A stretch of DNA of 36,588 nt. It comes from Pseudomonadota bacterium (GTDB lineage: Bacteria; Pseudomonadota; Gammaproteobacteria; Burkholderiales; UBA11063). Under the pieces are notes generated by a model, which made no database searches, was not told where the DNA came from, and saw only the letters and a list, made by a program, of their open reading frames with translations. Position 1 is the first letter of the stretch. Each line of letters opens with the position of its first letter. Below are positions 5,284 to 35,354 of this stretch, in pieces. The stretch lies in assembly GCA_003962985.1 (NCBI GenBank), contig RXKA01000176.1:1-36588 (forward strand), given 5' to 3'. The position numbers and the translations under genes were made by a program.

Positions 5284-5321
5284 AACAAAGACTATACCAA
5301 AGATGTTAAAAGTTGACAAGA

Positions 5322-6476: not shown

Positions 6477-6526
6477 TCTTTCTCTCTTTCTTAGTAATAT
6501 ACTATCTTGTCTCTCTTGTGTCTTCT

Positions 6527-6604
6527 TCTCTCTGTTTAATATAGATAGAGAAGATAAAAATAGCTGGAATACTCCAGCTTATTTTAAAATTGGCTTGTCC
6601 ACTT
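6527..6604 (-). promoter_or_regulatory. Bipartite A/B element, copy 1 (reads toward hub gene)
   Basis: Box A AAGTGGACAAG begins at 6604 and box B (ending in CTATATTAAACAGAGAGA) begins at 6551 on the minus strand, 53 bases apart. A purine-rich tract then leads to the hub ATG at 6476. The spacer between the boxes contains a hairpin terminator for the upstream gene. Orientation and location fit a promoter for the baseplate-fibre operon. Box A lies 4 bases after the DCL-protein stop. Confidence 0.7.
6555..6582 (-). terminator. Hairpin terminator inside element copy 1
   Basis: On the minus strand AGCTGGA-GTAT-TCCAGCT (6579-6562) is a perfect 7-bp stem with a 4-base loop followed by ATTTTTATC. It ends transcription of the polymerase/DCL unit at 6608. 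On the plus strand the tail is TATTTTAAAA, so it may act both ways. It lies between box A and box B of element copy 1. Confidence 0.7.
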
Positions 6605-6607
6605 TTC

Positions 6608-7294
6608 TTACATGAATCTTTCAGGATAGTTTTTCTTTGAATCTAAAATGGACAGATTTGCATACTCATGAACTATTTGTAGAATAGCTTTTTCTTTATG
6701 AAATTGTTTAAGTTTTTCTACAAGGATAGGATCCTTCCAAGTTTTTTGAATTGAGTTATCTTCAGTGCCTGCAAGTTCAATTTTATTTGGATCTATGTTA
6801 TTATTTTTCATAAAGGTTGTTATGATTTTATCGAAAGTCCATTCCCCAGAATGATCAACATGAGCTACTGGAGAGGTATCTATAGTCTTTCCTGATATTG
6901 GACAAATCATGCCTGGTTTGAAGTTTAAGTGTTTAAATTCTATTACTTGATCTCTAATAGTATTTCTCGCTGCTTTCTTCACTATAGTCAATCTAGAAGG
7001 ATTTGTAACACATGATAAATATGACCAATCAGTTGAGCTACCATCCTCTCTGTATAAATAAAAAACTCTAGATGTCATATTTGCTCGCACAGTAAAATAC
7101 TTAATACCACATCCAATTTTTTTATCAGCTTCTGGGTGTCTTTTGATGAGTGCTCTTAAAAAGAGATCATCTTGACCTTTTATTTCGTCATTATATTTGG
7201 TCTTATATAATATTTCTTGGCAGGCTACTTTTATTTCATCCTTTGTTCTAAAAGTTCTCTCACCAATAAATATTAACTCTTGTTTTTTACACAT
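6608..7294 (-). CDS. DCL/DUF3223-domain protein with C-terminal HNH-like motif
   Basis: 228 residues. The N-terminal half matches the DCL/DUF3223 pattern: DDLFLRALIKRHPEADKKIG (about residues 42-61), GIKYFTVRA, then a hydrophobic-acidic-Gly-Ser stretch FYLYREDGSSTDWSYLSC. DCL domains are known from plant plastid rRNA and polymerase proteins and from many phage proteins; the bacterial role is unsettled. The C-terminal half has CPISGKTIDTSPVAHVDH, an HNH-like arrangement (Cys, then His-x-Asp-His) that could be a metal-dependent nuclease site. It follows the polymerase gene by 19 bases with a GGGGG ribosome site, so the two are probably one operon. Confidence 0.7.
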   Translation of the reverse strand: MCKKQELIFIGERTFRTKDEIKVACQEILYKTKYNDEIKGQDDLFLRALIKRHPEADKKIGCGIKYFTVRANMTSRVFYLYREDGSSTDWSYLSCVTNPSRLTIVKKAARNTIRDQVIEFKHLNFKPGMICPISGKTIDTSPVAHVDHSGEWTFDKIITTFMKNNNIDPNKIELAGTEDNSIQKTWKDPILVEKLKQFHKEKAILQIVHEYANLSILDSKKNYPERFM

Positions 7295-7313: not shown

Positions 7314-9080
7314 TTACCATATTTTATTAATAATTCTCTTGACTAGAGAACCTTCTTCGTTTAAAGTTGAATCTAACGTTCCTTCTAGAAGAGTTACAGG
7401 TGTTCTACTTGTAACTCTTTTTTTTATTTCATTAAACTCCAAGACATCTGGAAGGGTACTTTGAATAGATCTTATTTGATCCTCAGCATTTTTAGTTATT
7501 TCATTAGATATTGTTGATGCTGATGTTATAATTACATTCTTTTTTGATAGATCTTGTTCATTATTCAAGACAATTGTTGGATTCTCCTCCCAAACTAAAA
7601 AACTTTTAATACCATAATGTTCACATGTTTCATTTACAGCATCACAAATTCTCTTTGTCCAGTATTCTTGTCTTAATTTATTACTAAATGAGACAGAGAA
7701 CCCATCAAATTGATATAAAGTAATTTGAAAATCAGTAGTTTCATTTGTAAGCTGAAAGGCAGGGTATATTAGTACCTGTTCCATAGCTTGAGCTTGTTGA
7801 GCTAACACGCTAAGAACATTCTTTTTAGTTATCTTGATTGTTTTAAGAGTAGGAGGATCATAAGGAGATGGTTGATCATATACTTCTGTTGTATATCCAG
7901 CTTTTAATAAGGTATTAACTCTCTTTTTTCTGGCAATTAGGATAGCTTTCATAATTGGATGAGATAAAAACAATTGACCACCATTTACAACACCAAAATC
8001 TGATAGAGAGAGATCTAATTCATTTACTAGTCTAGTCTCCCCCATTCCAAAAATAATTCCATAAGTATGGTCTTTTAATGTTCCTTTAACTCTTTCATAT
8101 GAAGTTAAATCTAAATTAGATAAACCTAGATGTGTGATTAAATCACTCCATAACTTCTTACCAGATTCTAAAAATTCTAAAACTTCAGGAACATCCCATT
8201 GTCTAGCAATAATAGCCAACTGTGCAGAAGATAGATCAAACTCAACCCACCCTTGAGTTAATGCCTTACGAACACTCTTCTTTAAATTTTGCATAGAAGC
8301 TCCCATAGTAAATAGTCGATCACTATTTGCAGTAGGAACATAAACAGGAATTGGTCTTTCTTTAATTGTTTGAAGAATTAATTTCTGAATTCTTTGTGCA
8401 TTAGGATTTGTTATTTTTTCTATTTCAGTTTCTGCTGCTTCAAAATTAGGTGCAAGAGCAGTAAATTTATTAGTAGGAAGATTATTTAGATATTGAGCCA
8501 TATATCTAGCTCTTGGAGAATCTGCAATTGCTACAAGATTTGCAGCTTCTTCTCTATCTAGTTTTAATAACTCTCTTTCTCTTTTTAATGATTTCTTATT
8601 GCCATTATCAATATATACAGACTCTTCATGTGCATAAATTCCATTTAGTTCATCATCAATCGCTTGTTGAACTTCAATTGGCCAATTTACGATTACTCTT
8701 CTCTGCTTACCATCAGCAATCTTTACTGAATGTCCTGGAAACACTTCTTCCCAAGAAGATACTGACCAATCTCTTCCTTCTTCATCAAGAACTAAAGAGG
8801 CAACTCCTGATGGGAGAACAAAATTTATAAAATGTGTAAGAAATGGCTTTGCTGCATACTTACCATTATCAATCAAATGCTCCTTGCCTTCTGCTCTTGC
8901 AATTGATTCTCTACCAACTCTTACTGCTCCTGTTTCTTCATCCCTATACGATGAGAAAGCCAATAATCTAAACATATTCCAGTGATATTCCTTCTTACAA
9001 CCACAAGTAAGACAATTATCCAGATTTGGCAGTGCTTCTGATATTCTCTTTCTGTTTGTTGGTTTAATAAGTCTCTTCAT
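7314..9080 (-). CDS. Divergent family A DNA polymerase (palm/fingers only)
   Basis: 588 residues. Pol A landmarks in order are ASMQNLKKSVRKAL (262-273 region, the thumb-palm QN motif), motif A FDLSSAQLAIIA with Asp282, motif B KDHTYGIIFGMGE with Lys336/Tyr340/Phe344, a Q-helix-like NVLSVLAQQAQAMEQVLIYP (421-440), and motif C YQFDGFSV with Asp459. Departures from bacterial Pol I are Gln in the steric-gate position and Asp-Gly in place of Asp-Glu in motif C. No 3'-5' exonuclease motifs are visible. The N-terminus has a possible zinc site CLTCGCKKEYHW. Ribosome site AGAAGG. This is the only replication enzyme recognised in the genome. Confidence 0.8.
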   Translation of the reverse strand: MKRLIKPTNRKRISEALPNLDNCLTCGCKKEYHWNMFRLLAFSSYRDEETGAVRVGRESIARAEGKEHLIDNGKYAAKPFLTHFINFVLPSGVASLVLDEEGRDWSVSSWEEVFPGHSVKIADGKQRRVIVNWPIEVQQAIDDELNGIYAHEESVYIDNGNKKSLKRERELLKLDREEAANLVAIADSPRARYMAQYLNNLPTNKFTALAPNFEAAETEIEKITNPNAQRIQKLILQTIKERPIPVYVPTANSDRLFTMGASMQNLKKSVRKALTQGWVEFDLSSAQLAIIARQWDVPEVLEFLESGKKLWSDLITHLGLSNLDLTSYERVKGTLKDHTYGIIFGMGETRLVNELDLSLSDFGVVNGGQLFLSHPIMKAILIARKKRVNTLLKAGYTTEVYDQPSPYDPPTLKTIKITKKNVLSVLAQQAQAMEQVLIYPAFQLTNETTDFQITLYQFDGFSVSFSNKLRQEYWTKRICDAVNETCEHYGIKSFLVWEENPTIVLNNEQDLSKKNVIITSASTISNEITKNAEDQIRSIQSTLPDVLEFNEIKKRVTSRTPVTLLEGTLDSTLNEEGSLVKRIINKIW

Positions 9081-9100: not shown

Positions 9101-9130
9101 ATACTAGAATTAATTACTACTTTATGTCAA
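9101..9130 (-). promoter_or_regulatory. Sigma70-like promoter for the polymerase gene
   Basis: On the minus strand TTGACA (9130-9125), an 18-base spacer and TAGTAT (9106-9101) lie just upstream of the polymerase ATG at 9080. The leader would be very short, about 14 bases, and the ribosome site would begin almost at the start point. The same ACTTT-TGTCAA sequence occurs beside element copy 5, so it is part of a repeated arrangement. Confidence 0.35.
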
Positions 9131-9160: not shown

Positions 9161-9238
9161 AAGTGGACAAGACGATTTTGATTAAATACGTCTAATCCTT
9201 AGCTAATTTCATTTCTCTATCTATATTAAACAGAGAGA
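9161..9238 (+). promoter_or_regulatory. Bipartite A/B element, copy 2 (reads toward plus-strand regulators)
   Basis: Box A AAGTGGACAAG at 9161 and box B at 9214-9238, 53 bases apart. The last part of the spacer, TAATCCTTAGCTAATTTCAT, is identical to that in copy 6. A purine-rich tract follows (GAGATAAGAGAAAGAAGAAA). It lies between the divergent polymerase gene and the plus-strand operon starting at 9357, and is oriented as a promoter of that operon. Confidence 0.7.
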
Positions 9239-9356
9239 TAAGAGAAAGAAGAAATACCTAGTCCTATACCATCTCTAGGATCAAATCTCTTAATCATTTC
9301 TAGATTAGATCTTGACATTTAAAATAAAGTATTCTAGAGTAGAAGTCAGGTGATAG

Positions 9357-9524
9357 ATGAATGAAGAGATAAAGAAGAGGAAGTATGTGATAAAGAATCC
9401 ACATCCTAGAAAGACGTGGCAAGTTAATGTTATATTAGATGATGAGCAATTTAAAAAATTAAAAGAGTTGGCAAATGGTAAGAGATTAACTGTAGTTATA
9501 AGAGAGCTAATAGAGAAAGCATAG
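9357..9524 (+). CDS. Small ribbon-helix-helix (CopG/Arc-like) protein
   Basis: 55 residues, ATG at 9357 (an in-phase or shifted ATG at 9361 is possible but out of this frame). A basic N-terminus (EEIKKRKYVIKNPHPRKTW) is followed by a strand-helix-helix pattern: VNVILDDEQFKKLKELANG and TVVIRELIEKA. This is the layout of ribbon-helix-helix DNA-binding proteins. First gene of the plus-strand island downstream of element copy 2. It probably regulates phage promoters; the target is not visible. A second protein of the same type follows 9 bases later. Confidence 0.7.
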   Translation: MNEEIKKRKYVIKNPHPRKTWQVNVILDDEQFKKLKELANGKRLTVVIRELIEKA

Positions 9525-9533
9525 ATAGAGGGG

Positions 9534-9755
9534 ATGAACATGGAAGAAAAGATTAAATATAATAAAAATGGTAAGCCAAGGAAGCAAAAAGTTGTAATAA
9601 AGCAAAAATTTATGACTAAGAGAATTACATTTTCTTGTACCCCATCAATATATGATTCGATTAACAATTTAGCAGAACAATTAAAAAAACATCCAGCAGC
9701 ATTAGTTAGAACCATTATTGAGGATTATTTAAAGGAGCAAAATGAAAAAATGTGA
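9534..9755 (+). CDS. Ribbon-helix-helix DNA-binding protein
   Basis: 73 residues from ATG 9534 (ATG 9540 gives 71). A GAGGGG site precedes it. The basic leader IKYNKNGKPRKQKVVIKQKF is followed by KRITFSCTPSIYDSINNLAE and a second helix PAALVRTIIEDYLKEQ, a typical strand-helix-helix fold that dimerises on DNA. It overlaps the next small gene by 14 bases, so the two are co-translated. A likely transcriptional regulator of the island or of the divergent polymerase unit; the target is an inference. Confidence 0.7.
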   Translation: MNMEEKIKYNKNGKPRKQKVVIKQKFMTKRITFSCTPSIYDSINNLAEQLKKHPAALVRTIIEDYLKEQNEKM

Positions 9756-9876
9756 TTGGTGTAATCTATCCTTAAAAAAATCGGACACCATTATCTTTAA
9801 CAACAAGCTTTATCACAAAATCTGCTTATACCTCCTCTCCTTAGCAAAATTCTCAGCACAAAAAGATAAATCTTAA
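9742..9876 (+). CDS. Small zinc-finger-like protein
   Basis: 44 residues. An AAGGAG ribosome site lies 5 bases before ATG 9742, inside the end of the previous gene. The sequence begins MKKCDWCNLSLKKSD and continues to NKLYHKIC, giving Cys-x2-Cys ... His-x2-Cys spaced as a small treble-clef or LIM-like zinc finger. The C-terminus is hydrophobic then basic. Small zinc-finger proteins are common phage regulators or host-takeover factors; no specific function is claimed. The good ribosome site and cysteine pattern argue that it is real despite its size. Confidence 0.6.
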   Translation: MKKCDWCNLSLKKSDTIIFNNKLYHKICLYLLSLAKFSAQKDKS

Positions 9877-9957
9877 ATCTTCCAAAATAATCTATTCTAG
9901 AAAGTTATATTCATATCAATATGAAGTGGAGTAGGATTTTAATGAAAGAAGGAAAGA

Positions 9958-10200
9958 ATGATAGTAAGAGTTAAAAGAAAAAATGTATTAATTAGAATAC
10001 CATCTAATTTAGCACAAAAGATGGATATAGCATTAATATGCTGTTCAGCATTAGGAACTCATATATCTAGAAATCGATTTATTATTCAAGCAATAGAAAA
10101 TGAGACTGATTTAATTTTTCAAGAAATGAAAAGAATTCAAGATGAAGAGAATGCTAAAGCAAAAATTGTAATAAATAGGAGATTTAATAATGAAAGCTAA
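9958..10200 (+). CDS. Ribbon-helix-helix-like protein
   Basis: 80 residues, GAAGGAAAGAATG start. KNVLIRIPSNLAQKMDIALI is a beta strand plus first helix, then SRNRFIIQAIENETDLIFQE forms the second, as in CopG/Arc-like DNA binders whose second helix often starts with S/N-R-x-F/x-I/A-I. The C-terminal tail is charged (EMKRIQDEENAKAKIVINRR). It is separated from the previous gene by 81 bases that contain a TTCTAGAA palindrome (9895-9902), so it may have its own promoter. It overlaps the next gene by 11 bases. The third probable ribbon-helix-helix protein in this island. Confidence 0.65.
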   Translation: MIVRVKRKNVLIRIPSNLAQKMDIALICCSALGTHISRNRFIIQAIENETDLIFQEMKRIQDEENAKAKIVINRRFNNES

Positions 10201-10384
10201 TATAAGTCTTAATCAAAGACAATCAGAGTTTTTAAGAGATTTACTGCATACCATACATCCAGAGCACATTATTGACTTTTTAGTAGATAATGACATTTTA
10301 GATGATGAGGATACAAAAAACTTATTAAAACAACTAGAAATAATGGATCCTGAATACTATTTTGGTGTCAAAAATGCAGGATAA
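10190..10384 (+). CDS. Small acidic hypothetical protein
   Basis: 64 residues: MKANISLNQRQSEFLRDLLH, then an acidic region DFLVDNDILDDEDTKNLLKQ. It is helical, with no cysteine pattern, membrane segment or known motif. An AGGAG site lies inside the preceding gene (AATAGGAGATTTAATAATG). It is translationally coupled on both sides (11-base overlaps). Position just before the tube/chaperone-like pair suggests a partner of those proteins, but nothing in the sequence proves it. Confidence 0.65.
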   Translation: MKANISLNQRQSEFLRDLLHTIHPEHIIDFLVDNDILDDEDTKNLLKQLEIMDPEYYFGVKNAG

Positions 10385-10781
10385 ACCAAATACTAAAACA
10401 AAAAAATCTATACCAACTCCTATAATTACTCCACCTCTAAAAAAGAATGGAATAACTATATATATTAATAAGATACCCCTAGATGTTCTTCAGATTGATT
10501 ATAAAGAAACTGTTAAGCTTTTAGGGGTAAGAGTATGTTTTGGTAATCTAGTCTTGCCTAAAGACCAAGCAATCGCATTTAGAAGTACTTTATTAAATAC
10601 CTTTGAATCAAAGATTGATATTGAAGTTATATATTATAAGGATGATAAGATTAAAACTATTGATCTCCTAAAAGAGTGCAGAATAATAGATATTGAAAAT
10701 ATTCAAGTCTTTAATGAAAATTGGAAAGAAAAAATACAATTAGAAATTTCTAGAATTGAATATGGTATTATGTTGGAGTAA
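10374..10781 (+). CDS. Paralog of the tail tube protein, on the opposite strand
   Basis: 135 residues from ATG 10374. The sequence aligns along most of its length with the tail tube protein at 24736-25224. Pairs are KIPLDVLQIDYKET / KIFDEVTELNYEAT, VLPKDQAIAF / TLSKDQATEF, KIDIEVIYY / FTITVTYG, DLLKECRI / DVLNGCAI and KIQLEISRIEYG / KFDLVIQDIAFEG. A loop present in the tube protein (its residues ~41-56) is missing here. The first 23 residues are a Lys/Pro/Thr-rich extension. The next gene resembles the tail chaperone, so tube and chaperone order is preserved. Role unknown: minor tube subunit, tube initiator or repurposed fold. Confidence 0.7.
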   Translation: MQDKPNTKTKKSIPTPIITPPLKKNGITIYINKIPLDVLQIDYKETVKLLGVRVCFGNLVLPKDQAIAFRSTLLNTFESKIDIEVIYYKDDKIKTIDLLKECRIIDIENIQVFNENWKEKIQLEISRIEYGIMLE

Positions 10782-10795
10782 GAAAGAGAGAAAGA

Positions 10796-11167
10796 ATGGA
10801 AAAGCAACAAAGAACTAAGTTTTATTTTAGATTTCCCACAAGACAAGAATGGAGAAAGTTTTCATTTAAAAAGAATGATGGAGTTTTAAAATCTCTAGAG
10901 TATATAGTACATACGACTATTATTGAACCTTGTCTTGAAGAGTATTTAAAATTAGAACAGCAAAAGATAACATTAACTGAAGATATTGGTCAAAGATTAG
11001 TAGATATTTTAGTATGTTCCTCCGATGAGGAAATTATTGATAGAATTGAAGTGGATATAGCAAAACCAATCGTTTCTATAAATAAAAAAAATAATGAGGG
11101 AGAAGAATTATATTCTTCTATAGAGAAGATAGTAATAAAGATATTAGAGAGGTATGAATTGATATAA
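10796..11167 (+). CDS. Paralog of the tail assembly chaperone
   Basis: 123 residues, GAAAGAGAGAAAGAATG start, 14 bases after the tube-like gene. FYFRFPTRQEWRKF (residues 9-22) matches both repeats of the tail chaperone at 23828-24421 (YIFRLPTFKEWKE and LKFRSPTRAEWKR). The following segments also match: GVLKSLEYIVHTTIIEP against FTALEYLVEQCKLD, and DIGQRLVDILVC against SELMGLVESDVVFI. It is one repeat unit rather than two, and I see no slippery frameshift extension. Probably a dedicated chaperone or partner for the tube-like protein before it. The C-terminus is helical. Confidence 0.65.
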   Translation: MEKQQRTKFYFRFPTRQEWRKFSFKKNDGVLKSLEYIVHTTIIEPCLEEYLKLEQQKITLTEDIGQRLVDILVCSSDEEIIDRIEVDIAKPIVSINKKNNEGEELYSSIEKIVIKILERYELI

Positions 11168-11298
11168 GTAATTATTTTTTGGTCATAGTTCTTCTTTTTT
11201 GAGTGTGTAAATTAACCAGATGAAGATGCTTATAGTCATTAAGATATAAGCAAGAAGATACCAGTCTTGTTTTTCTATATAATTCTTATATCAAGAAA
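11168..11298. other. Short gap after the plus-strand island
   Basis: 131 bases between converging genes (stops at 11167 and 11299). The minus strand has an open stretch ending at 11183 that would encode a hydrophobic peptide (WYLLAYILMTISIFIWLIYT then KKEEL). It has no ATG before the hydrophobic part and no ribosome site, so no gene is called. No clear hairpin terminator was seen. Confidence 0.4.
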
Positions 11299-13785: not shown

Positions 13786-13834
13786 TTGTTGTTTTTATCC
13801 TTTTCTTTATGTTAGTATTTTTAATACTTAATAC

Positions 13835-15066: not shown

Positions 15067-15144
15067 AAGTGGACAAGGGGAAATTGATATATGGTGAGTG
15101 TATGTTACTCTTTTTCATTTCTCTATCTATATTAAACAGAGAGA
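15067..15144 (+). promoter_or_regulatory. Bipartite A/B element, copy 3 (points antisense to flanking genes)
   Basis: Box A at 15067 and box B at 15120-15144, 53 bases apart, followed by a purine tract (GAAGATAAGAGAGAAGAATA). Both neighbours are on the minus strand: the protease starts at 15007 and the histidine-rich protein ends at 15169. As a promoter it would therefore transcribe antisense to 15169-16116. No plus-strand gene follows. Confidence 0.6.
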
Positions 15145-15168
15145 GAAGATAAGAGAGAAGAATAGAGA

Positions 15169-16116
15169 TTACACTACAGTCATACAATTACTTCCTGGTG
15201 CAGAATTAAAATGTCCAGGTTGTTTTGTATATACCTCCTGCGCAGCAGTTATTAATTGAGCAATAGTTGTTGGTCCAACATATACAAGAGCATTTGTAGC
15301 ATCTGCACTATTATGATATGTAGTCGATCCTACATGAGCATTATGTTTTGTTTTATATTGGACTGCTAAATCAAAGATTCCTGCTGGATTTGTTATATTT
15401 GCAGCAGTAATTGTATTAAAGGTGTCATTAACTACATGTACACCAGCTTCAACAAAGTGCGCATTTATTTGTGCTTTACAATCATTTGCTAAATTAATCA
15501 TAGAATCATAATCTGTAGAAATAGCATTTGGTGCTGATATAATATTTACAGAGTCTGGTATTAAGTGTGGACTACCCATTACTGAAAATGCAAAGTGATT
15601 ATTTGCGTTTAATTTAATATCATTTAATGCAAATGCAATTGCTGTAAAAGAATCTAATGATAAATATCCACCAAGAACATTTGTTACATCTGCTGTAACA
15701 TGAACTCCACTTGCAGTTCCATCTGGTTTTAAATTTGCAATATGATTATTATAAGAGGTTTGAATTGCATAAGTTAATGTTTGTAGTGCTGATAGAATTT
15801 GTGCTACATAATAAGCACCATCATTCATAGTAGCAGTTACTACATTTACATTATCTACTAGTTTATGTGCATATATTAAAGATGCTCCTCCTCTTCCAAG
15901 ATGGTTGTTATTCCAGAGAGTTTTAGCATTTTGAAAAGTTGTGGTTGCTGTTGTAAGAGTTGTTGGACTCCCACCACTTAAAACTTGTATAGTCCCATCA
16001 ATTAATACATCTGGTCCATCATTATGAATTGACGAAGTACCATGTACTTGTTTGTGGGTAGAATTATGTGCATCTATCACATTTTGTATAACTGAATCTC
16101 CAACAATGTATGCCAT
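15169..16116 (-). CDS. Histidine-rich repeat protein between portal and protease
   Basis: 315 residues made of five or six degenerate units of about 45-50 residues. Each contains Asn/Ala-x-His, a short loop, His, a few residues, then Asp-x-x-Asn. Examples are AHNSTHKQVHGTSSIHNDG (16-34), NNHIANLKPDGTASGVHV (near 123), NANNHFAFSVMGSPHLIPDS, NAHFVEAGVHVVNDTFN and HNAHVGSTTYHNSADATN. Regular His/Asp spacing suggests metal binding. No family recognised. It occupies the place where Mu-like phages usually have the MuF/gp30 minor head protein, which I do not find elsewhere. A minor head protein or head appendage is possible; unproven. Confidence 0.65.
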   Translation of the reverse strand: MAYIVGDSVIQNVIDAHNSTHKQVHGTSSIHNDGPDVLIDGTIQVLSGGSPTTLTTATTTFQNAKTLWNNNHLGRGGASLIYAHKLVDNVNVVTATMNDGAYYVAQILSALQTLTYAIQTSYNNHIANLKPDGTASGVHVTADVTNVLGGYLSLDSFTAIAFALNDIKLNANNHFAFSVMGSPHLIPDSVNIISAPNAISTDYDSMINLANDCKAQINAHFVEAGVHVVNDTFNTITAANITNPAGIFDLAVQYKTKHNAHVGSTTYHNSADATNALVYVGPTTIAQLITAAQEVYTKQPGHFNSAPGSNCMTVV

Positions 16117-19140: not shown

Positions 19141-19165
19141 TTGCAAACCTTCTTTTAGCATTAAG

Positions 19166-21047: not shown

Positions 21048-21388
21048 TTATTTATTTCCTTTTAACTCATTGTACCTATGTCATCTATTAAACAATAGAT
21101 AGTTTTTTATTATACTTTTTTTTAAAAATGCTTTAAAGCATCCTGACCATCATACCATCTAGATGATCTTATTTTCTTCTATCTCTTATCTCTCTGTTTA
21201 ATATAGATACCAACTTCATTTATACTAGGAATAACACACACTTAATAGATTTCCTCTTGTCCAGTTTACTTATACCTACATGTAAGTTATAAAATAATAA
21301 ATAGGAAGAGGAATGAGAGGTGGTTGGAGAGGGTAAGGGTTTAGTATTAGGTAGGGTTAAAAAGTTTAACCTAGAGGAGTATAGGAGG
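21048..21388. other. Noncoding region with element copy 4, palindromes and a purine tract
   Basis: The 341 bases hold element copy 4 (21189-21266). In its probable leader toward 21047 there are two palindromes, ATGCTTTAAAGCAT (21128-21141) and CATCTAGATG (21156-21165). Beyond box A lies TACATGTA (21277-21284). From 21301 the plus strand is strongly purine-rich (AGGAAGAGGAATGAGAGGTG), ending in a weak hairpin at about 21353-21372 that might end the tail operon. No gene seen. Confidence 0.6.
21189..21266 (-). promoter_or_regulatory. Bipartite A/B element, copy 4 (reads toward 21047 gene)
   Basis: Box A variant AACTGGACAAG begins at 21266 and box B at 21213, 53 bases apart on the minus strand. 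Box B here starts TTGGTATCTATATT, so its left arm is changed and the inverted-repeat character is lost, while CTATATTAAACAGAGAGA is kept. TACATGTA lies 11 bases beyond box A, the same spacing as in copy 6. Confidence 0.65.
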
Positions 21389-21991
21389 TTATTTTATTGG
21401 TTTAGGACCAGTAACGATATTACTTTGTGAAGGAGGAGCGGGAGGGGATTGTGGTGTAAATGTAGAACCTTCTGCGAAGGAGGTACCTGGATCTACTTTT
21501 TTAGTAGAGGTTGGTTTTACATTTCTAACTTCAATACATTTAAAAGTGGTTTGAATAAATCCTGGTCTTTGTACAGTTGGACCTTCTATATCTTCAATAT
21601 AAATTGAGTTTATACCGCGCATTTGTAGAGCTGGATGGTTTACAGCAAAACCTGTAAGTGTAGTTGATGAGCCAGATCTTGATTTTGAGGTAACTTTTAC
21701 TCCTAATTGTGTATCAAAAAATTTTAATATTTCTTCTAACGAGTCCATTTGTGATTGGAATGCAATAGTATTAATAATTGAAATTTTTGCTAATTCTAAA
21801 CCACTATCTTTAATAGTCGCATAATTTTGGTTTTTAGGACTTTTAACAATACCTTTTCTTGCACGAGTTACTTGTACAGTAGATATACCAGGGAGTGTAA
21901 ATTGTCCTAATTGTACAATATCCCAAGGAGTTCTTGGTATTGTAGGATCTAAAGTGTCTGTTTGTCCAACGACAAAGGGAAATGTAGCCAT
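21389..21991 (-). CDS. Tail protein after the tape measure (hub adaptor / gp43-N-like candidate)
   Basis: 200 residues. TPWDIVQLGQFTLPGISTVQ and TRARKGIVKSPKNQNYATIK, then DSGLELAKISIINTIAFQSQ, resemble tail proteins that join tape measure and baseplate hub (Mu gp43/P2 D-region or DNA-circularisation-like proteins). The position directly after the tape measure agrees. The C-terminus is a Pro/Ser/Thr-rich tail (TFTPQSPPAPPSQSN). The gene starts 24 bases after the tape-measure stop with an AAAGAAAGAGAGAATG site. Precise family not proven. Confidence 0.6.
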   Translation of the reverse strand: MATFPFVVGQTDTLDPTIPRTPWDIVQLGQFTLPGISTVQVTRARKGIVKSPKNQNYATIKDSGLELAKISIINTIAFQSQMDSLEEILKFFDTQLGVKVTSKSRSGSSTTLTGFAVNHPALQMRGINSIYIEDIEGPTVQRPGFIQTTFKCIEVRNVKPTSTKKVDPGTSFAEGSTFTPQSPPAPPSQSNIVTGPKPIK

Positions 21992-22014
21992 TAGTTCATT
22001 CTCTCTTTCTTTAT

Positions 22015-23547
22015 TTAACGTGATAATCCTTTGCTTCTTGCAGCATTTCTAGCTTCTCTATAACCAGTTACTACACTTTGTTTAGTCTTTTCAGCAGTTT
22101 TTTGTGCAATTTCTGAAGGATCAACATCACCAGCAACTTCAATATTATTTGTAATATTTATTGGTGGGGAAGGAGAACCTGAAGTTGAAGGTAATCCAAC
22201 AATATTAAATGGACTAGGATTAATGTAAGGGATATCTTTTGGCAATCCTTCTTCAGTTAATTCAACAGTTGCTTGAGTTTTCTTTCTATTATCTTCAAAT
22301 GCCTTTATAGCTTCATCAGCTTTAGAAGTATTTCCCGTAATAGAAAATGACTCACTTAGTGCTTTTCCTAAGATATTTCCAATATATGTAAATATAGCTT
22401 TTAATCCTGTTGCAGCACCTTCTAATGCATCGATTAATACCACACCAAATCCCTCATTTTTTATTTTTACCATATAACTAAAAACAGCTTTTATTGCATC
22501 TCCTGCAAGATCTATTACTTTTGTAAGTGCTTTAAATCCAGCAGTAATATCTTCTTTAGATATTTTTGATAATGGTTCAAATAAAGCATCTAGAGATTTT
22601 GTAACTGCATCTCTAAATCCTTGATCTTGAAATGCATCAGAAATATTTCCAACAAACTTAGTAACAGTTGGTAAGCTTTTTAAAGTAATTGTTCTAAATA
22701 AGTTTGGAATAGCTTCTTCTAAATTTGATAATGCTCCTCCAATTGAAGTACTTGCCAAGGACTTAGCATATTCTCCAGTCTTATTTTCACCAAGTAATCC
22801 TTTTGTTGCTCCAACAATCGCACCAATTGCCACATTTGGATTTACCTTACCTTTTTTTATTAATTCTTCTACTTGTTTCTTTATTGCTTCAGGATCTCCT
22901 TTTAATTTTAATCTCTTTCCTATTTCTAAAACAATTGGTTCTCTTCCAATAGTTTCTAGAGATTCAAATCCTAATGCTTCTCCTGTTAATTTTCCAACAC
23001 CTTTAATTTTACCAATAGCAGCAACTAAGTTTTGAGCAATATCTTCACCTTTAAATGCTTGGACATCTGCATACAGACCTTGTAATGTATCAATTTCTGG
23101 TAAAGAGAATCTAGAAGAGGCAAATTTTGTAGTTGCTTTAATTAATCCTTCAGCACTACCTGGAGTTTGTCCTCCTATTTGAAAGACTCTTGAATATTGT
23201 TTTTCAGCTTCTGCTCTTGATTTGAATAATTTTTCAAAGGCAAATAATGTAGATTGTTTAAACTGTTGTCCTTGAATTGCTTGGCTTACTATAGATTTTC
23301 CAAAATCGAATCCCTTTTCTAGAAGACCAACAACACCTCCAAGAGCAGTTTTAAATACTCCTAATGCACTTTTTGCAATATTTATTTGTGCTGATAATTT
23401 AATAAATGGAGTTAGTTTATCAATCTTACCTAGAGCATTATTTATACCTGCAAGTGATTTATCAATATCCATAAGTTTTTCAAGCATCTTATCTAGTGCT
23501 TGTAATTTTTCAATTGCTTGTAGTTCTAATTTAAGAGTATCATCCAT
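22015..23547 (-). CDS. Tape measure protein
   Basis: 510 residues, helical, Ala/Lys-rich. The N-terminal coiled coil (LQALDKMLEKLMDIDKSLAG) is followed by LLEKGFDFGKSIVSQAIQGQ, QSTLFAFEKLFKSRAEAEKQ, then TPGSAEGLIKATTKFASSRF, typical of Mu-like tape measures whose N-terminal half has an alpha-helical solenoid. Moderately hydrophobic segments (residues ~330-390) may insert in the host membrane. At about 0.15 nm per residue it predicts a tail near 75 nm, short for a myovirus. It follows the chaperone after a terminator. Confidence 0.82.
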   Translation of the reverse strand: MDDTLKLELQAIEKLQALDKMLEKLMDIDKSLAGINNALGKIDKLTPFIKLSAQINIAKSALGVFKTALGGVVGLLEKGFDFGKSIVSQAIQGQQFKQSTLFAFEKLFKSRAEAEKQYSRVFQIGGQTPGSAEGLIKATTKFASSRFSLPEIDTLQGLYADVQAFKGEDIAQNLVAAIGKIKGVGKLTGEALGFESLETIGREPIVLEIGKRLKLKGDPEAIKKQVEELIKKGKVNPNVAIGAIVGATKGLLGENKTGEYAKSLASTSIGGALSNLEEAIPNLFRTITLKSLPTVTKFVGNISDAFQDQGFRDAVTKSLDALFEPLSKISKEDITAGFKALTKVIDLAGDAIKAVFSYMVKIKNEGFGVVLIDALEGAATGLKAIFTYIGNILGKALSESFSITGNTSKADEAIKAFEDNRKKTQATVELTEEGLPKDIPYINPSPFNIVGLPSTSGSPSPPINITNNIEVAGDVDPSEIAQKTAEKTKQSVVTGYREARNAARSKGLSR

Positions 23548-23611
23548 ATCTTACTGCCTTTCATTCATCTTCTTTTAAATCTTATCTTGAGACAACTCAA
23601 GTGTCATTTTA

Positions 23612-23650
23612 TCAATAAAAAACCCCACTGGAGAATTCAGTAGGGTTTCT
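23612..23650 (-). terminator. Hairpin terminator between chaperone GT and tape measure
   Basis: Minus strand: AACCCTACTG, loop AATTCTC, CAGTGGGGTT, then TTTTATTGAT. A 10-bp stem with one G-U pair and a T-run, 14 bases after the stop of the frameshifted chaperone. Partial termination here would lower tape-measure expression relative to sheath and tube, which fits their stoichiometry. Confidence 0.8.
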
Positions 23651-23663
23651 TAGTATGAGGATC

Positions 23664-24421
23664 TTATAAACCAGACTCAGATCTTTTTATTGACATTGCC
23701 ATATATTTCCAAATAAACGCTAATCCTATATCACTCTCTCTAGTTACCTGGCCAGTTTTAAGATAATCAAGTACTCCATACAAGCAATTTATACCTACTT
23801 GCATATTCTCATGTACTTGCTCTAATACTAAGAGATCTCTTTTCCCTCTGCATCCATCAAATCTTCAGCAACCATTTTTATAAATGGACCACCTACTAAT
23901 TCAATAAATACCACATCAGACTCTACTAATCCCATTAATTCAGAATCTGTAATATCCAATTTACATTGTTCTACTAAGTATTCTAATGCTGTAAAATTAT
24001 CAGAGCCAATTAAAGAAGATATCCTTTTCCATTCTGCTCTTGTCGGAGATCTAAACTTAAGTGATCTTCCCCTTCTAGAAATTTTGAATCCTGATGAACC
24101 ATCCTCAAATAAAATCTTTTGACCATCAGTATCCCCATCTTGTTCATCTTCCATTAAATAAGTTATTAACTTTCTTCCTAATACCTCTACAAGAACAGCA
24201 TCAGACTTTTCATCTGATCTCATCTCTTGTAAAGTAGGGAAAACCAAACAAGTACTAACTAATTTATCATTTGTAGAAAATGTACTATCTTTTCTTCTTG
24301 CTTCTTTCCACTCTTTAAATGTTGGAAGTCTAAAAATATAATCATTTTCTCTACGAGTTACTTTATAAAGCTTGGTATATTTACCTTTTAATTCTGCAAT
24401 CTGTTCATTTGTAATTTTCAT
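23664..24421 (-). CDS. Tail assembly chaperone GT fusion made by programmed -1 frameshift
   Basis: The 0-frame chaperone ends at 23828. Just before its end the minus strand reads GAG GGA AAA GAG, where G-GGA-AAA (23846-23840) is a classic -1 slippery heptamer, close to the GGGAAAG of lambda G/T. After a -1 slip the frame stays open for 58 codons (RDLLVLEQVHENMQVGINCL, then YGVLDYLKTGQVTRESDIGL, then a Trp/Tyr/Met-rich end) to TAA at 23664, giving about 252 residues. In the family, the T extension binds tube protein while G coats the tape measure. Slip observed in sequence; use in vivo is inferred. Confidence 0.8.
23828..24421 (-). CDS. Tail assembly chaperone G (two-repeat protein)
   Basis: 197 residues between tube and tape measure. 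It is an internal duplication: FRLPTFKEWKE (30-40) with following helices and LVEVLGRKLITYLM, and FRSPTRAEWKR (123-133) with LEYLVEQCKLD and VVFIELVGGPFIKM. The same unit occurs once in the plus-strand gene at 10796. Such all-helical proteins coat the tape measure during tail assembly and are not in the virion. The ATG overlaps the stop of the decayed GIY-YIG gene by 4 bases (ATGA), and AAAGGAAAGAAAGAATG gives a ribosome site. Confidence 0.8.
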   Translation of the reverse strand: MKITNEQIAELKGKYTKLYKVTRRENDYIFRLPTFKEWKEARRKDSTFSTNDKLVSTCLVFPTLQEMRSDEKSDAVLVEVLGRKLITYLMEDEQDGDTDGQKILFEDGSSGFKISRRGRSLKFRSPTRAEWKRISSLIGSDNFTALEYLVEQCKLDITDSELMGLVESDVVFIELVGGPFIKMVAEDLMDAEGKEIS

Positions 24422-24680
24422 TCTTTCTTTCCTTTCTTTTTATGAGGATGCTTCATTTTTAATTTAGTCTCCTCTGAATGTCTATAACCTATTCTATTAT
24501 TTTTGCCTTTATTAGCCAATCCAATCTTTTGCCTAGTTTCAGGAGAGACTATTCTACCCGTGGCCAATTTATTGTTTGACCAATATATACTTTCTCATCA
24601 CTCAAACAATAAATAGCATAAATACCACAAAGTCCTGATCTGTCTCTACCAAATTCTTTTATGAAATCTCTTCCATTCAT
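24418..24680 (-). pseudogene. Decayed GIY-YIG / NUMOD3 homing endonuclease
   Basis: The N-terminal piece from ATG 24680 (an upstream start at 24785 would overlap the tube gene) reads MNGRDFIKEFGRDRSGL, then CGIYAIYCLSDEKVYIGQT, then stops at 24549. In the next frame, open from before the break, the sequence resumes as a NUMOD3-type tail: SPETRQKIGLANKGK and HSEETKLKMK, ending KKKGKKE at 24418. The middle of the nuclease, including the conserved Arg and Glu, is missing. So an internal deletion plus frame change inactivated a nuclease like the one at 4642-5283. It sits exactly between tube and chaperone genes. Confidence 0.8.
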
Positions 24681-24735
24681 GAATTTGGTATTAACAGTCA
24701 GGACTTTGAAAGTCAATATGTCGTTGGGAATAACT

Positions 24736-25224
24736 TTATTGGTTTGGATTGAATGCCCTAATGCCACCAGGATTTTCAGGACCACCCTCGAACGCGATAT
24801 CTTGAATCACTAAGTCAAATTTGACTTGGAGTGCTGTAGCACCTGGAGTATGTGTATTACTTATAGAAGCAATAGCACATCCATTTAGTACATCTGTAGC
24901 AGTTTTTAGTTCAGTTAAGCTATCTCTTGTTGGACCATAAGTTACAGTAATTGTAAATGGTACTGCTGCAAATCCATTACCAAGCAATTTCATAAATTCA
25001 GTTGCTTGATCCTTAGATAAGGTCATAGATCCTTTATAAGTGGTATATCCTATAGTATAACCAGCAGGAACTGGTGATGTACCACGCAGTTCTCCCTTTT
25101 CAATTGTAGCTTCGTAATTTAATTCTGTTACTTCATCAAAAATTTTGCCATTAATGTCTACGTTAATATCACTATAACCATAAACAAAACCATTAATTCT
25201 TTGTGTAAATCTAGTTGTTGCCAT
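24736..25224 (-). CDS. Tail tube protein (Mu gpM / P2 FII-like)
   Basis: 162 residues, the normal size. Tube-fold features are DINVDINGKIFDEVTELNYE (19-38), TTYKGSMTLSKDQATEFMKL (61-80), FTITVTYG (90-97), DVLNGCAIASI (111-121) and KFDLVIQDIAFEGG (135-148). Hexamers stack to form the inner tail tube. It follows the sheath by 22 bases. A diverged paralog lies on the plus strand at 10374-10781. The C-terminus overlaps an upstream extension of the decayed nuclease frame. Confidence 0.85.
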   Translation of the reverse strand: MATTRFTQRINGFVYGYSDINVDINGKIFDEVTELNYEATIEKGELRGTSPVPAGYTIGYTTYKGSMTLSKDQATEFMKLLGNGFAAVPFTITVTYGPTRDSLTELKTATDVLNGCAIASISNTHTPGATALQVKFDLVIQDIAFEGGPENPGGIRAFNPNQ

Positions 25225-25246
25225 TTTTTTACTCCATTAATTAAAA

Positions 25247-27031
25247 TTAAACACCTAAAACAGCAACAGGAGCAAATCCGATAGTTAAAGTAATAAACTT
25301 TGCGTATCCGAATGGCTGAATGTTTGCAGTTATATTAATTTGTAGTGTTGAATAAACATTATTATTTCTATCTACAACAACATTAATATTAGAAACGTCT
25401 TGCCTCATATTACCAAACATGTATGCATAAATATTCTTTTCAATTTTTCTAGCATCTACTTCGTAAATTGTTCCACCAACACTATTTGTTCTAACAGTTG
25501 TATTTATAAATCTTGTTGCAGCAGCATTAAGTAATGTTTCTGCTCTATTCATAACTCTACGATATTGCTGATATGTAAAATCTGAACCATTTGGTGCAAA
25601 CATCCTACCATTTGTAATGTAATAACCCTGAATGCCAGGAATTGTACGAATTGTAGTAAACCTAGCGGCATCTAAAGATGGGGAAGTATATTCATCATGG
25701 AATACTCCTGGTTGTCCATCTGGTAGTCTTAATAGAATATCTGGTAGAGAACCACGTTGAACATTTCCCAGATCCTCTGAGATAGGAATAAGAGCTGTTC
25801 TTGCAGCTACAAGAGAACCAATATTTCTACGATTATATCTAGAAGTTGCTTGTGAGAAAATTGCTGCCGCACCTGCACAAACGTTTACTCTAATAGAAGA
25901 AAAATTAACAAAATCATTAATTAATGAAGTTTCCCATGCTGCTTCTGTTTCTCCATCACTTAATTGTCCTAATGTATATCTTATTAAACCAGCAGCAACC
26001 GCAGTTGATCCGGCATTTACCTTCATAACAGTTTTTCCAGCATTTGAAGGAATGCTTAATACAAGTTCATTTCCAGTATTCCCTACAGAAAATACGCCAC
26101 CTGTAAAAGTAGTAACTTTTAATGCAGCTACAAGTGCAGCGATATTTGCAATATTACCCATAGGGAAGGTAAATGAATGTTGTTCTGTATAAGTATTTCC
26201 AGCATCATAAGAAATATCAATAATAAGTTGTTCACCTCCTGCAAACATCATAGGAAAGACGTTTCCAGCAGTTACTAATTTAGCTAATAGGTTTAAATCT
26301 CTTGCTTCTACAATAGAAAAGACGAATCTTTTATTAGTTAAAGCAGTATTCATAAAGGTATCTACAGTACCAGCTAAGGCAGCAGAACATGGACCTACTA
26401 CATGGACAAATTCCCATTGTCTAGAATCTGCTAATAATGCTGTAAGAGCATTGCTAAGATCAGTATTATTCCAGGTTGCACCAGTTGTATAAAAGGTAAA
26501 TTGATCACCTGTTTTAAATCCAGTTGCACCATTTGAAAATACTAGAGTTACACCAGTTTGAGGAATAACAAAAGTGCCTCCACCAGGAACTGAGGTTTCT
26601 GGAGAAAAGGTATTTCCATTATCCATTGAATAAACGAAGGTAGGATAAGGATTAACACCAACCTTACCTGCTCTAACTATTTGTACAATAACTTGATAAG
26701 TATCTAATGGAGTAGATCCTGTAGTAGCAAGTGCTCCATCAGAACCACTTTGTAAATCTACAATAATATCTGTAACGCTTCCTACAACAGAAGCATTCAT
26801 GCGAATCGCATATACTGGACTTGGATTGATATCTAAAGATACAGCAATTGCATCTACAAGTTCTCCAGATCCAAAAGTTGTTTTCGCATCATTTAAATTT
26901 GAAATAGAAACTATTTGATTAGCGACACCATTAGTTGATGTGCCTAATTTTACATGCAAGCCAATATTGCTTGTTGTAAAACCAATTGCACCATCAACCT
27001 CGGTAAAACTAGTAATTCCTGGTAATGCCAT
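25247..27031 (-). CDS. Contractile tail sheath protein (Mu gpL-like)
   Basis: 594 residues, larger than the ~495 of Mu gpL. The N-terminus ALPGITSFTEVDGAI and the C-terminal third (RYNRRNIGSLVAARTALIPI, YQQYRRVMNRAETLLNAAAT, TNSVGGTIYEVDARKIEKNI, then NITANIQPFGYAKFITLTIG) are sheath-like, the last being the strand donated to neighbours in the contracted lattice. Extra size comes from two surface insertions: about 130-185 (NGNTFSPETSVPG ... FKTGDQFTFYT) and about 262-352, the latter also present in J and gp36-like proteins here. It shows the tail is contractile. Confidence 0.88.
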   Translation of the reverse strand: MALPGITSFTEVDGAIGFTTSNIGLHVKLGTSTNGVANQIVSISNLNDAKTTFGSGELVDAIAVSLDINPSPVYAIRMNASVVGSVTDIIVDLQSGSDGALATTGSTPLDTYQVIVQIVRAGKVGVNPYPTFVYSMDNGNTFSPETSVPGGGTFVIPQTGVTLVFSNGATGFKTGDQFTFYTTGATWNNTDLSNALTALLADSRQWEFVHVVGPCSAALAGTVDTFMNTALTNKRFVFSIVEARDLNLLAKLVTAGNVFPMMFAGGEQLIIDISYDAGNTYTEQHSFTFPMGNIANIAALVAALKVTTFTGGVFSVGNTGNELVLSIPSNAGKTVMKVNAGSTAVAAGLIRYTLGQLSDGETEAAWETSLINDFVNFSSIRVNVCAGAAAIFSQATSRYNRRNIGSLVAARTALIPISEDLGNVQRGSLPDILLRLPDGQPGVFHDEYTSPSLDAARFTTIRTIPGIQGYYITNGRMFAPNGSDFTYQQYRRVMNRAETLLNAAATRFINTTVRTNSVGGTIYEVDARKIEKNIYAYMFGNMRQDVSNINVVVDRNNNVYSTLQINITANIQPFGYAKFITLTIGFAPVAVLGV

Positions 27032-27057
27032 TTTATTTTAATTCTCCTCTTTGTTAT

Positions 27058-27342
27058 TTATTGTCTTGGAACATAGTGGGTAGCAGCTCTATCTAAACCT
27101 GCTTCAAATTCTTCTTTTGTCATTTCTTCTCCAACTGCCCATTTATTTAATATCTTTGCAGAATTAAATAACCAATCCTTACTACCAACTCTTGCCTCCT
27201 CACCTGGCAACCATCTTCCTTTATTTAGTTCTCTTCTAAATTTTGTAGATGTATCTGTAACATGTTGATAAGTTTTCCACAACATTGGTTTTGGAAGTAA
27301 TTCCTCTTTCCACTCTTCTATAGTCTTTTTTGTATCTGACAT
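27058..27342 (-). CDS. Small hypothetical protein before the sheath
   Basis: 94 residues, charged and helical: DTKKTIEEWKEELLPKPMLW, then GRWLPGEEARVGSKDWLFNS and EEMTKEEFEAGLDRAATHYV. No membrane segment or metal site. It occupies the position of Mu gp38, a small gene between gp37 and the sheath. No family recognised. It is in the tail operon with 57-base and 26-base gaps to its neighbours and a GAGGATTTGATTAAATG start. Probably a tail completion or assembly factor. Confidence 0.6.
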   Translation of the reverse strand: MSDTKKTIEEWKEELLPKPMLWKTYQHVTDTSTKFRRELNKGRWLPGEEARVGSKDWLFNSAKILNKWAVGEEMTKEEFEAGLDRAATHYVPRQ

Positions 27343-27399
27343 TTAATCAAATCCTCTTTCTGAATTTTATAGTATTTATATGTTAAGAGAACACTTTAA

Positions 27400-27897
27400 T
27401 TAAAGCTGTGGTTGAATTTCAACAAACTCTCCATGAGCATCAACTGTTTTAATTTGAATATACTTTAGTCCTGGATCAAGTATTGTTACATCAAGTACTA
27501 AAGATAATCTATATCCATATCCATTTTGACTATTCTCTCCAGGATCTAACATTTCTCCTGATGCACTAATTATACTTGGCTCACACAAAGTAATTCTTGT
27601 AGCTGCCACAATATCATTTACTAAAAAATAAACATCATCAGGAGATTTATGAAATACATGACAATATACTTCTGATTCCATTGATTTTCCTTGATGCGGA
27701 TTTACACCAAGATGTTTTGTTGGAGTAAACCTATCTTTCCCAAATGTCCAAATAATTCTAGGAGTAACACTATTAAACTCAATTGCTCTATTTCCATAAA
27801 CGATTTCTATCTGAGATAGAGGTATAGTTGGCTGTTGTTTAGATTGTAATATATCTTGTAAAGTTGTATTAATTAGTCCGATGATACGTGGCAGCAT
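27400..27897 (-). CDS. Tail completion protein, Mu gp37-like candidate
   Basis: 165 residues. PRIIGLINTTLQDILQSKQQ, VTPRIIWTFGKDRFTPTKH, MESEVYCHVFHKSPDDVYFL and VNDIVAATRITLCEPSIISA fit the pattern of small alpha/beta tail-terminator or gp37-type proteins that cap the tube at the neck. It overlaps the stop of the gpG-like gene by one base (TAATG), so translation is coupled. Order gp36-G-gp37-gp38-sheath agrees with Mu except that gp36 is moved upstream with the endolysin between. Confidence 0.6.
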   Translation of the reverse strand: MLPRIIGLINTTLQDILQSKQQPTIPLSQIEIVYGNRAIEFNSVTPRIIWTFGKDRFTPTKHLGVNPHQGKSMESEVYCHVFHKSPDDVYFLVNDIVAATRITLCEPSIISASGEMLDPGENSQNGYGYRLSLVLDVTILDPGLKYIQIKTVDAHGEFVEIQPQL

Positions 27898-28301
27898 TAT
27901 TTCATTATCCTTTCAACTACTTTTGATAATACTCCATGTATAGGTGCTTGCCATGTTGAATGTTCTAAACCACCACTGCTGCTATCTGGCACCATTTTTC
28001 TTTGTGGTAGTCTCTTTGTACCTGTTTGATGATACTTTGTAAACTCTAAATCAGATTCGATTTTTGCAAAATTCCTTGCATAAGATATCTTAAATGATTT
28101 CTGTATTGCTCCATTCCTATCAAATTTAGATCCATCACTATTCTTATCCCACTTTTGCCCATATGGATCAACTTGATCCTTAAATCCTTTTTTCAGCATT
28201 TCCTCCATAACTTTAGCCTCTTCCTTCATCACCATTGCAGTTAAATCTCTCCTTAATAACTTATACTTTCCAATAATTGTTTTTATATTACTTGTTATCA
28301 T
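27897..28301 (-). CDS. Virion morphogenesis / tail completion protein, Mu gpG-like (gp31)
   Basis: 134 residues. Family signals: FKDQVDPYGQKWDKNSDGSK, the early QVDPYGQKW box; then NGAIQKSFKISYARNFAKIE; then FTKYHQTGTKRLPQRKMVPD, the YHQxGT...LPxRxF box typical of Mu gpG/phage_tail_S proteins. These join head and tail in Mu-like phages. First gene after element copy 5, 38 bases from the end of box B to ATG, so the leader is short. Confidence 0.8.
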   Translation of the reverse strand: MITSNIKTIIGKYKLLRRDLTAMVMKEEAKVMEEMLKKGFKDQVDPYGQKWDKNSDGSKFDRNGAIQKSFKISYARNFAKIESDLEFTKYHQTGTKRLPQRKMVPDSSSGGLEHSTWQAPIHGVLSKVVERIMK

Positions 28302-28338
28302 GAATCTATTCTACATCCTATCTCTCTCTATCCATATC

Positions 28339-28417
28339 TCTCTCTGTTTAATATAGATAACAATATCAATTAAATTAATCTTCTACCTACTCTTTCTCAG
28401 TTTCCTCTTGTCCACTT
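28339..28417 (-). promoter_or_regulatory. Bipartite A/B element, copy 5 (reads toward tail operon)
   Basis: Box A AAGTGGACAAG begins at 28417 and box B at 28363, 54 bases apart (one more than the others). The left arm of box B is degenerate (TTGTTATCTATATT). Purine-rich sequence continues to the gpG-like ATG. The sequence upstream of box A (AATAAAATAA ... AAGGAAAGTGG) is nearly that of copy 2, including the ACTTT-TGTCAA motif farther out. Confidence 0.65.
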
Positions 28418-29700: not shown

Positions 29701-29878
29701 CTCTCTTTCCTTCTTTAATATATAATTTATTCTAGAAAAGAATTAATGCAAATAAAGATTTTTAGAATTATTTTTTGGTTAATGAATCCTGCTAATTTAG
29801 GGGATCTTTTCTAGAATTTTGCAGAAGGTAATATGGATGGTATAGTTGGTTTGGAAAGAAAGAAGACGGGTAGGAATT

Positions 29879-30292: not shown

Positions 30293-30293
30293 T

Positions 30294-30647: not shown

Positions 30648-30697
30648 TGATTTCTCTCTCTCTCTCTATCTATCTGTCTATTTACCTCTTCTATTCC

Positions 30698-30775
30698 TCT
30701 CTCTGTTTAATATAGATAGAGAAATGAAATTAGCTAAGGATTACACACATTTAATTAAAATTGGCTTGTCCAGTT
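30698..30775 (-). promoter_or_regulatory. Bipartite A/B element, copy 6 (points antisense to plus genes)
   Basis: Box A variant AACTGGACAAG begins at 30775 and box B at 30722, 53 bases apart. The spacer end TAATCCTTAGCTAATTTCAT is identical to copy 2. TACATGTA lies 11 bases outside box A as in copy 4. Transcription from it would run antisense into the genes ending at 30647 and 30292, and might reach the minus-strand genes at 29700-28856. A long (GA)n-like tract follows box B. Confidence 0.6.
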
Positions 30776-31300: not shown

Positions 31301-31312
31301 GTTATTCTCCAA

Positions 31313-34798: not shown

Positions 34799-35354
34799 TT
34801 ATTTTATAATTCTCCTTATTTTTAATAATAAAGTCTTTTATTACTACTAGCAATCATCTTCTCTTTAAACTTTAATGCCCATTTTTAAAAAACTCTCTAA
34901 TTTGACTTACATTAAGAGTTAGTTAAGACACTACCTTTACCATTAACCTATAGCTAAACTCCTACCCAAGACGCTTGTAGAGAGTTTTTAAAAGAGAAGA
35001 AAATGATAAGAACATATGCTGATGTACTACAAAAAATTATCTAAAATATATTGAAAAACTTCCAAAGCCATCCATCAAAGTAATAAAAAAAATTGATATT
35101 TAAAAATATAGTTACAGAAAAAAGATTTGATTTTAATCAACGCATTTCAACTTTAAAGATATTTTATAGAAAAGTGGACAAGAGGATTTTAATAAAACAC
35201 GTAATCTTCCATTAGAATCTCATTTCTATATCTATATTAAACAGAGAGAGATAAGAAGACAGATAAAAGTAGGAGGAAGAAGAATTAGTTAGAAGAGATA
35301 GACTAGTGATTAGTTAGATAGCCAGGTTTTTTTGATATTATATTTGATATCGTA
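34799..35354. other. Largest noncoding region: structured inverted repeat, AT tract, element copy 7
   Basis: 556 bases. At 34855-35010 nested inverted repeats could fold as one long structure: ATCTTCTCTTT (34857-34867) with AAAGAGAAGA (34991-35000 region), and TTTTTAAAAAACTCTCTA (34882-34899) with TAGAGAGTTTTTAAAA (34978-34993). A 13-codon plus-strand ORF follows at 35003. An AT-rich stretch (35080-35130) leads to element copy 7. A noncoding RNA or the replication origin are both possible. No tRNA or long gene seen. Confidence 0.5.
35172..35249 (+). promoter_or_regulatory. Bipartite A/B element, copy 7 (points antisense to fibre gene)
   Basis: Box A AAGTGGACAAG at 35172 and box B at 35225-35249 (TCTATATCTATATTAAACAGAGAGA as two parts, 25 bases), 53 bases apart. 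A purine tract follows (GATAAGAAGACAGATAAAAG). Both flanking genes are on the minus strand; transcription from it would be antisense to the fibre ending at 35355. Confidence 0.6.

Follow-up and report, generated by a model that had tools for sequence, protein, structure and literature searches.

The window analyzed here, a stretch of 36,588 bp, is one contig within a 2.54-Mb assembly whose RpoB is nearest to gammaproteobacterial sequences. The contig ends overlap by 82 bp, and because this sequence is repeated at both ends, the window is a complete, circularly permuted myovirus genome of 36.6 kb. Its gene content is of the Mu-headed myovirus type, with genes for terminase (17647-19176), portal (16172-17608), Mu-like protease (13835-15007), capsid (12334-13323, assigned from its position and from the relative described below), tape measure (22015-23547), sheath (25247-27031), and baseplate wedge (2700-4226). 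The minus strand carries almost all of the genes, the plus-strand exceptions being the 9357-11167 block and the small genes at 28508-28798 and 29846-30647. No lysogeny genes were recognized in the phage, and no recombinase was found among the phage proteins searched. Free-standing GIY-YIG homing-type endonucleases are encoded at 4642-5319 and 28856-29281; such enzymes could help to mobilize the DNA beside them.

The divergent gap between a polA-like gene (7314-9080, minus strand) and a small-gene operon (9357-11167, plus strand) contains a bipartite element at 9161..9260 on the plus strand, with box A at 9161-9171 and the core (box B) at 9218-9238. The adjoining stretch of the operon, 9357-10200, encodes small ribbon-helix-helix-like proteins (RHH_3 E 0.0017, under Pfam's cut-off). 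This is the second of seven copies. Each consists of AA[G/C]TGGACAAG, 46 bp of spacer (47 in one copy), the invariant TATCTATATTAAACAGAGAGA, and a purine tract. A strict search of the window found AA[G/C]TGGACAAG seven times and TATCTATATTAAACAGAGAGA seven times, paired in every case, and every TGGACAAG in the genome sat within an element copy, none being unpaired; the seven two-box copies proposed in the initial annotation are thus all present. First-order Markov genomes hold on average 0.1 copies of box A and no box B or A-B pair. The 21-bp core shows no difference among the seven copies, has a CAGAGAGA end, and is strictly directional. A purine-rich tract follows every core, as the annotation had noticed: the next 40 bases are 68 to 90% purine in all seven copies, against approximately 46% on average, and the tract is equally strong in copies that are oriented wrongly for any gene. 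Box A and core starts are 57 bp apart in six of the seven copies and 58 bp apart in copy 28417; the 53 bp (54 once) given earlier is the same distance counted to a different box B start. Of the further proposal of a conserved five-turn helical phase, the constant length is well founded but the phase is not, as its value changes with the choice of bases: 57 bp corresponds to 5.4 turns, and the box centers are 62 bp apart.

Three of the other copies, named like all copies of the window by their first box A base, also lead into genes. Element 1 (6498..6604, minus strand; box A 6594-6604, core 6527-6547, purine tract to about 6498) lies between the minus-strand genes 6608-7294 and 5322-6476, and its spacer contains a strong hairpin (6562-6579) with a T-tract. 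The stop codon of 6608-7294, which encodes a DUF3223 protein, abuts box A. Element 4 (21160..21266, minus strand; box A 21256-21266, core 21189-21209) is upstream of 20328-21047 on the same strand, and element 5 (28309..28417, minus strand; box A 28407-28417, core 28339-28359, purine tract to 28309), the copy with one extra spacer base, is followed 50 nt downstream by a start codon at 28301. Four of the seven copies (6604, 9161, 21266, and 28417) therefore stand upstream of operon start codons with leaders of 50 to 154 bp, and four copies in the relative do likewise. The remaining three point toward the 3' end of a gene oriented the other way. Element 3 (15067..15175, plus strand; box A 15067-15077, core 15124-15144, purine tract to 15175) is directed into the minus-strand gene 15169-16116, and element 7 (35172..35303, plus strand; box A 35172-35182, core 35229-35249, purine tract to 35303) into the minus-strand gene 35355-36107. 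Element 6 (30648..30775, minus strand; box A 30765-30775, core 30698-30718, purine tract to 30648) occupies the gap between the convergent genes 30881-31312 (minus strand) and 30279-30647 (plus strand), with minus-strand genes further on. Tandem, divergent, and convergent gene gaps are all occupied.

Searches of IMG/VR with the terminase yielded a single relative, IMGVR_UViG_3300047678_000084, whose terminase is 89% identical. It is 38,991 bp long and carries a 127-bp repeat at its ends, so it is also complete; the blocks common to the two phages are about 66 to 80% identical at the DNA level. Terminase, capsid, polymerase, and capsid-motif searches of IMG/VR gave no further relative, none was found in genome contigs or in the host genus or order, and phage records held no close relative. 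The relative has its own set of free-standing GIY-YIG homing-type endonucleases (9728-10312, 11103-11504, and 13804-14523), which differs from that of the window phage. The element itself appears to be confined to these two phages: no copy occurs elsewhere in the host assembly, a pattern search of 60 relatives gave one match that we read as chance, and four further DNA pattern matches were set aside as isolated chance matches with different surroundings.

The relative carries exactly seven elements, at module ends matching those of the window phage; by the position of TTAAACAGAG and strand they are 147-, 5494+, 8692+, 15538+, 22951-, 29305+, and 31833+ (hereafter prefixed G, with W for window copies). 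Copies 15067 and 35172 keep their orientation there (G147 and G22951, respectively), and convergent genes flank copy 30775 in the relative as well as in the window. In the relative, box A reads AAGTGGAATT in most copies and the core reads TCTAATTAAACAGAGAGA. A variant box A, AAAAAGAAYTC (AAAAAGAAYTCTAGAAAA), occurs in G31833 and G147, which bracket the packaging module (W5, see below), is absent from the other five copies, and aligns at the same register. Among the 12 copies of both phages with a recognizable AA[G/C]TGG, the distance from this motif to TTAAACAGAG is 65 bp in 10, 66 bp in W28417, and 64 bp in G8692. The initial annotation had named loss of the two-box spacing in close relatives as evidence against its reading; the spacing is present. 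Across all 14 copies ATTAAACAGAGA is invariant, and the spacers share only weaker TCATTTC and TGTGT patches. In this one comparison, with a single relative, the letters of both boxes differ between the phages in concert, in all copies of each.

The elements split each genome into seven modules (W1 to W7), with one element at each joint, and synteny between the two phages is broken only at elements. Along the main coding strand of the circular genomes, the order is W1 W2 W3 W4 W5 W6 W7 in the window phage and W6 W7 W4 W1 W2 W3 W5 in the relative. A single move of W4, a 7-kb minus-strand tail module (21389..28301; completion, sheath, and tape measure genes), would explain the difference: W4 lies between W3 and W5 in the window and between W7 and W1 in the relative. 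All three W4 junctions are elements with chimeric flanks (99% null of the flank score, approximately 27). The left flank of G8692 corresponds to W6604 (109) and its right flank to W28417 (131); for G15538 the counterparts are W21266 on the left (57) and W6604 on the right (150); and G31833 corresponds to W21266 on the right (121), its left flank having no match to any window copy. The switch of homology between W6604 and G8692 falls inside box B and the purine tract, at 8687-8733 of the relative, which both alignments span. With roughly 46 gene gaps, taken as equal, and seven elements, the chance of three junctions hitting elements is about 0.002. The sheath, portal, protease, and baseplate proteins have counterparts in Thermus and Meiothermus phages, and those phages with related sheath and baseplate proteins have the order portal, protease, sheath, baseplate, as in the relative and unlike the window; the move therefore probably took place in the lineage of the window phage. 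In a second rearrangement, element 2 and the following ribbon-helix-helix-like gene are inverted relative to their surroundings, the pair being kept together. A displaced gene is an older sign of shuffling: 31371-32177 matches the Mu gp36-like head-tail adaptor of Thermus and Meiothermus phages, and in both phages it sits in W2 by endolysin and tail genes rather than after the capsid gene as usual.

Two of the junction spacers of the moved module track the flanking module, G8692 going with W6604 and G15538 with W21266. Together with the concerted change of the boxes, this speaks for a common trans-acting factor as the source of selection and against wholesale copying. The idea that one protein or complex touches both boxes thus gains from the near-fixed distance, the diverged spacers, and the concerted change, and a single trans-acting complex would best explain this combination, as judged from sequence comparison.

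In the sense copies, the direction, the leader, and the position suggest a promoter. Inside the elements, no sigma-70 -35/-10 pair (TTGACA/TATAAT-like, 16-18 bp apart) is common to both phages, and the -10-like sequence of the core in the window (TATATT) is poor in the relative. The only TTGACA-(15-19)-TAnnnT pairs in the window, two good sigma-70-type promoters that drive in opposite directions, both lie in the divergent gap by element 2, outside the element: TTGACA-17-TAGAGT (9312..9340, plus strand), which separates element 2 from the gene at 9357, and TTGACA-18-TAGTAT (9101..9130, minus strand), upstream of the polA-like gene. The relative has TAGACA-17-TAGAAT in place of the former. Because these two pairs flank element 2 and the rightward one is kept in the relative, host promoters probably drive the early genes, and the elements would probably act at a later stage. 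No T7-type or other phage RNA polymerase gene was found, the sole polymerase found being DNA polymerase A-like, and no activator gene could be assigned in the phage. The product of the polA-like gene, 588 amino acids long, shows motifs of family A DNA polymerases (DLSSAQLAIIA and KDHTYGIIFGMG); no exonuclease domain was recognized in it, and it had no matches in phage records at E 0.01. The family signal reaches 4.8e-5 with Pfam in the relative. The candidacy of the 588-amino-acid protein as a single-subunit phage RNA polymerase was rejected, as hhalign places its motifs A and B on DNA and not RNA polymerase (at low probability); its AlphaFold model (pLDDT 40) was too poor for use. The 930-amino-acid protein of the relative, an RNA polymerase candidate by size, reads as a tail fiber.

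T7-like promoters are read by a single-subunit RNA polymerase, and their core runs into purine-rich transcribed sequence. The element resembles them in its contiguous, invariant, asymmetric core of about 21 bp that runs into a purine-rich stretch and is repeated genome-wide. It differs in that a T7-type RNA polymerase gene was not found in the phage and that a box lies 57 bp upstream, a feature that T7 promoters lack. The most likely arrangement is that host RNA polymerase acts together with a phage activator at box A.

The explanation we favor, with about an even chance of being correct, is that each copy is a composite phage control site, combining a start site at the core with a partner site at box A, and that the copies allow whole modules to be exchanged. 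The core and the start of the purine-rich leader would form a phage-specific start site firing rightward into the module, and box A, about 65 bp upstream of TTAAACAGAG, would be bound by another component of this complex; the simplest candidate is a phage-encoded activator recruiting host RNA polymerase. An activator at A with polymerase at B, the example offered by the initial annotation, is plausible and unproven, and the four copies that lead into operon starts speak for it. A simple promoter at every copy is not supported, as 15067, 30775, and 35172 face opposing genes, and it is these copies that trouble the plain promoter reading most; nor is a sigma-70 pair shared. Copies facing inward bracket modules W1 and W5, and those at their far ends may serve the modules if inverted, or yield antisense RNA. 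Since the same sequence stands at every module end, whole modules could be exchanged without gene breakage: recombination between copies, which we infer to have produced the rearrangement, would leave genes unbroken, and a moved module would retain a working signal. In a stronger form, which we think rather unlikely, each module is closed by a bipartite seam that is both a phage-specific promoter and a preferred recombination point, so that modules could be moved or inverted and expressed from either end.

The occupation of all kinds of gene gap, the equally strong purine tract of the antisense copies, and the position of every W4 junction at an element would also suit a DNA site that works in either orientation, with transcription secondary or absent. 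Such a site might be a replication origin or priming site, a strand-exchange hotspot, or a site for a phage DNA-organizing protein; the purine tract would then favor an R-loop or strand opening, and the phage does encode its own polA-like gene. This is a genuine possibility, if a minor one, because operon starts follow closely on four of the seven copies, the core has a strict direction, element 2 and its ribbon-helix-helix-like gene stay one unit, and the proteins searched included no recombinase.

Module shuffling at repeated elements also recalls the PeSLs of T4-like phages, described as an early promoter plus a stem-loop (Arbiol et al. 2010 and Comeau et al. 2014, as cited in PMC4503421 and PMC5931544). 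Both are repeated intergenic regulatory elements of a myovirus, at module borders and tied to module shuffling, but the present element lacks a shared stem-loop and a sigma-70 pair, has two boxes at a near-fixed distance and a purine tract, and brackets core structural modules in an unrelated 36-kb phage. A PeSL-like mobile cassette, in which a terminator stem-loop and a promoter insulate modules and spread via homologous exchange, could account for the hairpin and T-tract in W6604 (z -3.8) and G8692 (z -4.3), where the stem still pairs despite an A-T to G-C change, and for the strong hairpin in G22951. These three are the only copies with a strong hairpin (z below -3), most other spacers having no significant one. 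RNAalifold gave no consensus base pair over the 14 copies, and Rfam no match for the element, so a conserved RNA hairpin was rejected as an element feature; terminator-like scans of the window matched copy 6604 only, which likewise dismisses an intrinsic terminator as the common function. The stem-loop is not a shared feature, nor does every element hold an early promoter for host polymerase, and the cassette, already weakened, is improbable; the rearrangement breakpoints do lie at elements, as with PeSLs. The best reading of this comparison would be that the element resembles PeSLs in consequence and not in sequence or structure.

Multiple asymmetric intergenic sites are likewise found in the stoperators of L5-type mycobacteriophages (PMC3203893), which are single 13-bp sites, whereas the element is bipartite with a much longer core. 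In a repressor or silencer operator of this kind, one protein would occupy boxes A and B with two of its subunits; it might be a ribbon-helix-helix-like product of 9357-10200, next to element 2. Such an operator has in our estimation a low probability: a 21-bp invariant core with a box 57 bp off exceeds the usual size of such operators, lysogeny genes were not recognized, and the purine tract is left unexplained. The SAS/ESAS of cluster K mycobacteriophages, too, are phage-wide repeated asymmetric intergenic sequences with a second associated feature and letters that vary between phage groups; they lie immediately upstream of start codons with a proposed role in translation, whereas the element core is 50 to 154 bp from the start codon and some copies precede no gene (PMC3203893). 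Finally, a recently spread, MITE-like mobile repeat, suggested by patchwork sharing among copies (9161 shares its flank with 28417 and its spacer with 30775), is very improbable and appears largely refuted by the conserved positions, all seven copies lying at matching module ends although the shared blocks are only about 66 to 80% identical, with spacers not conserved and the rest of the host assembly free of copies. The initial annotation had preferred a regulatory signal to a mobile repeat; the matching sites, and aligned copies in which no terminal inverted repeats were seen, agree with it, but it missed that the copies are the seams of a module rearrangement.

The composite control site that we favor bears on the old question of how phages swap gene modules intact, with which the linker idea of modular evolution is concerned. 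In two related phages, a short, defined signal marks every module border, and the sole large rearrangement between them has its junctions at this signal. Between the relatives, the two boxes changed together and their distance stayed almost the same, so the element offers a compact system for finding the factor that reads a two-box phage signal. It would probably act as a virus-specific switch and at the same time mark the points of gene-block exchange.
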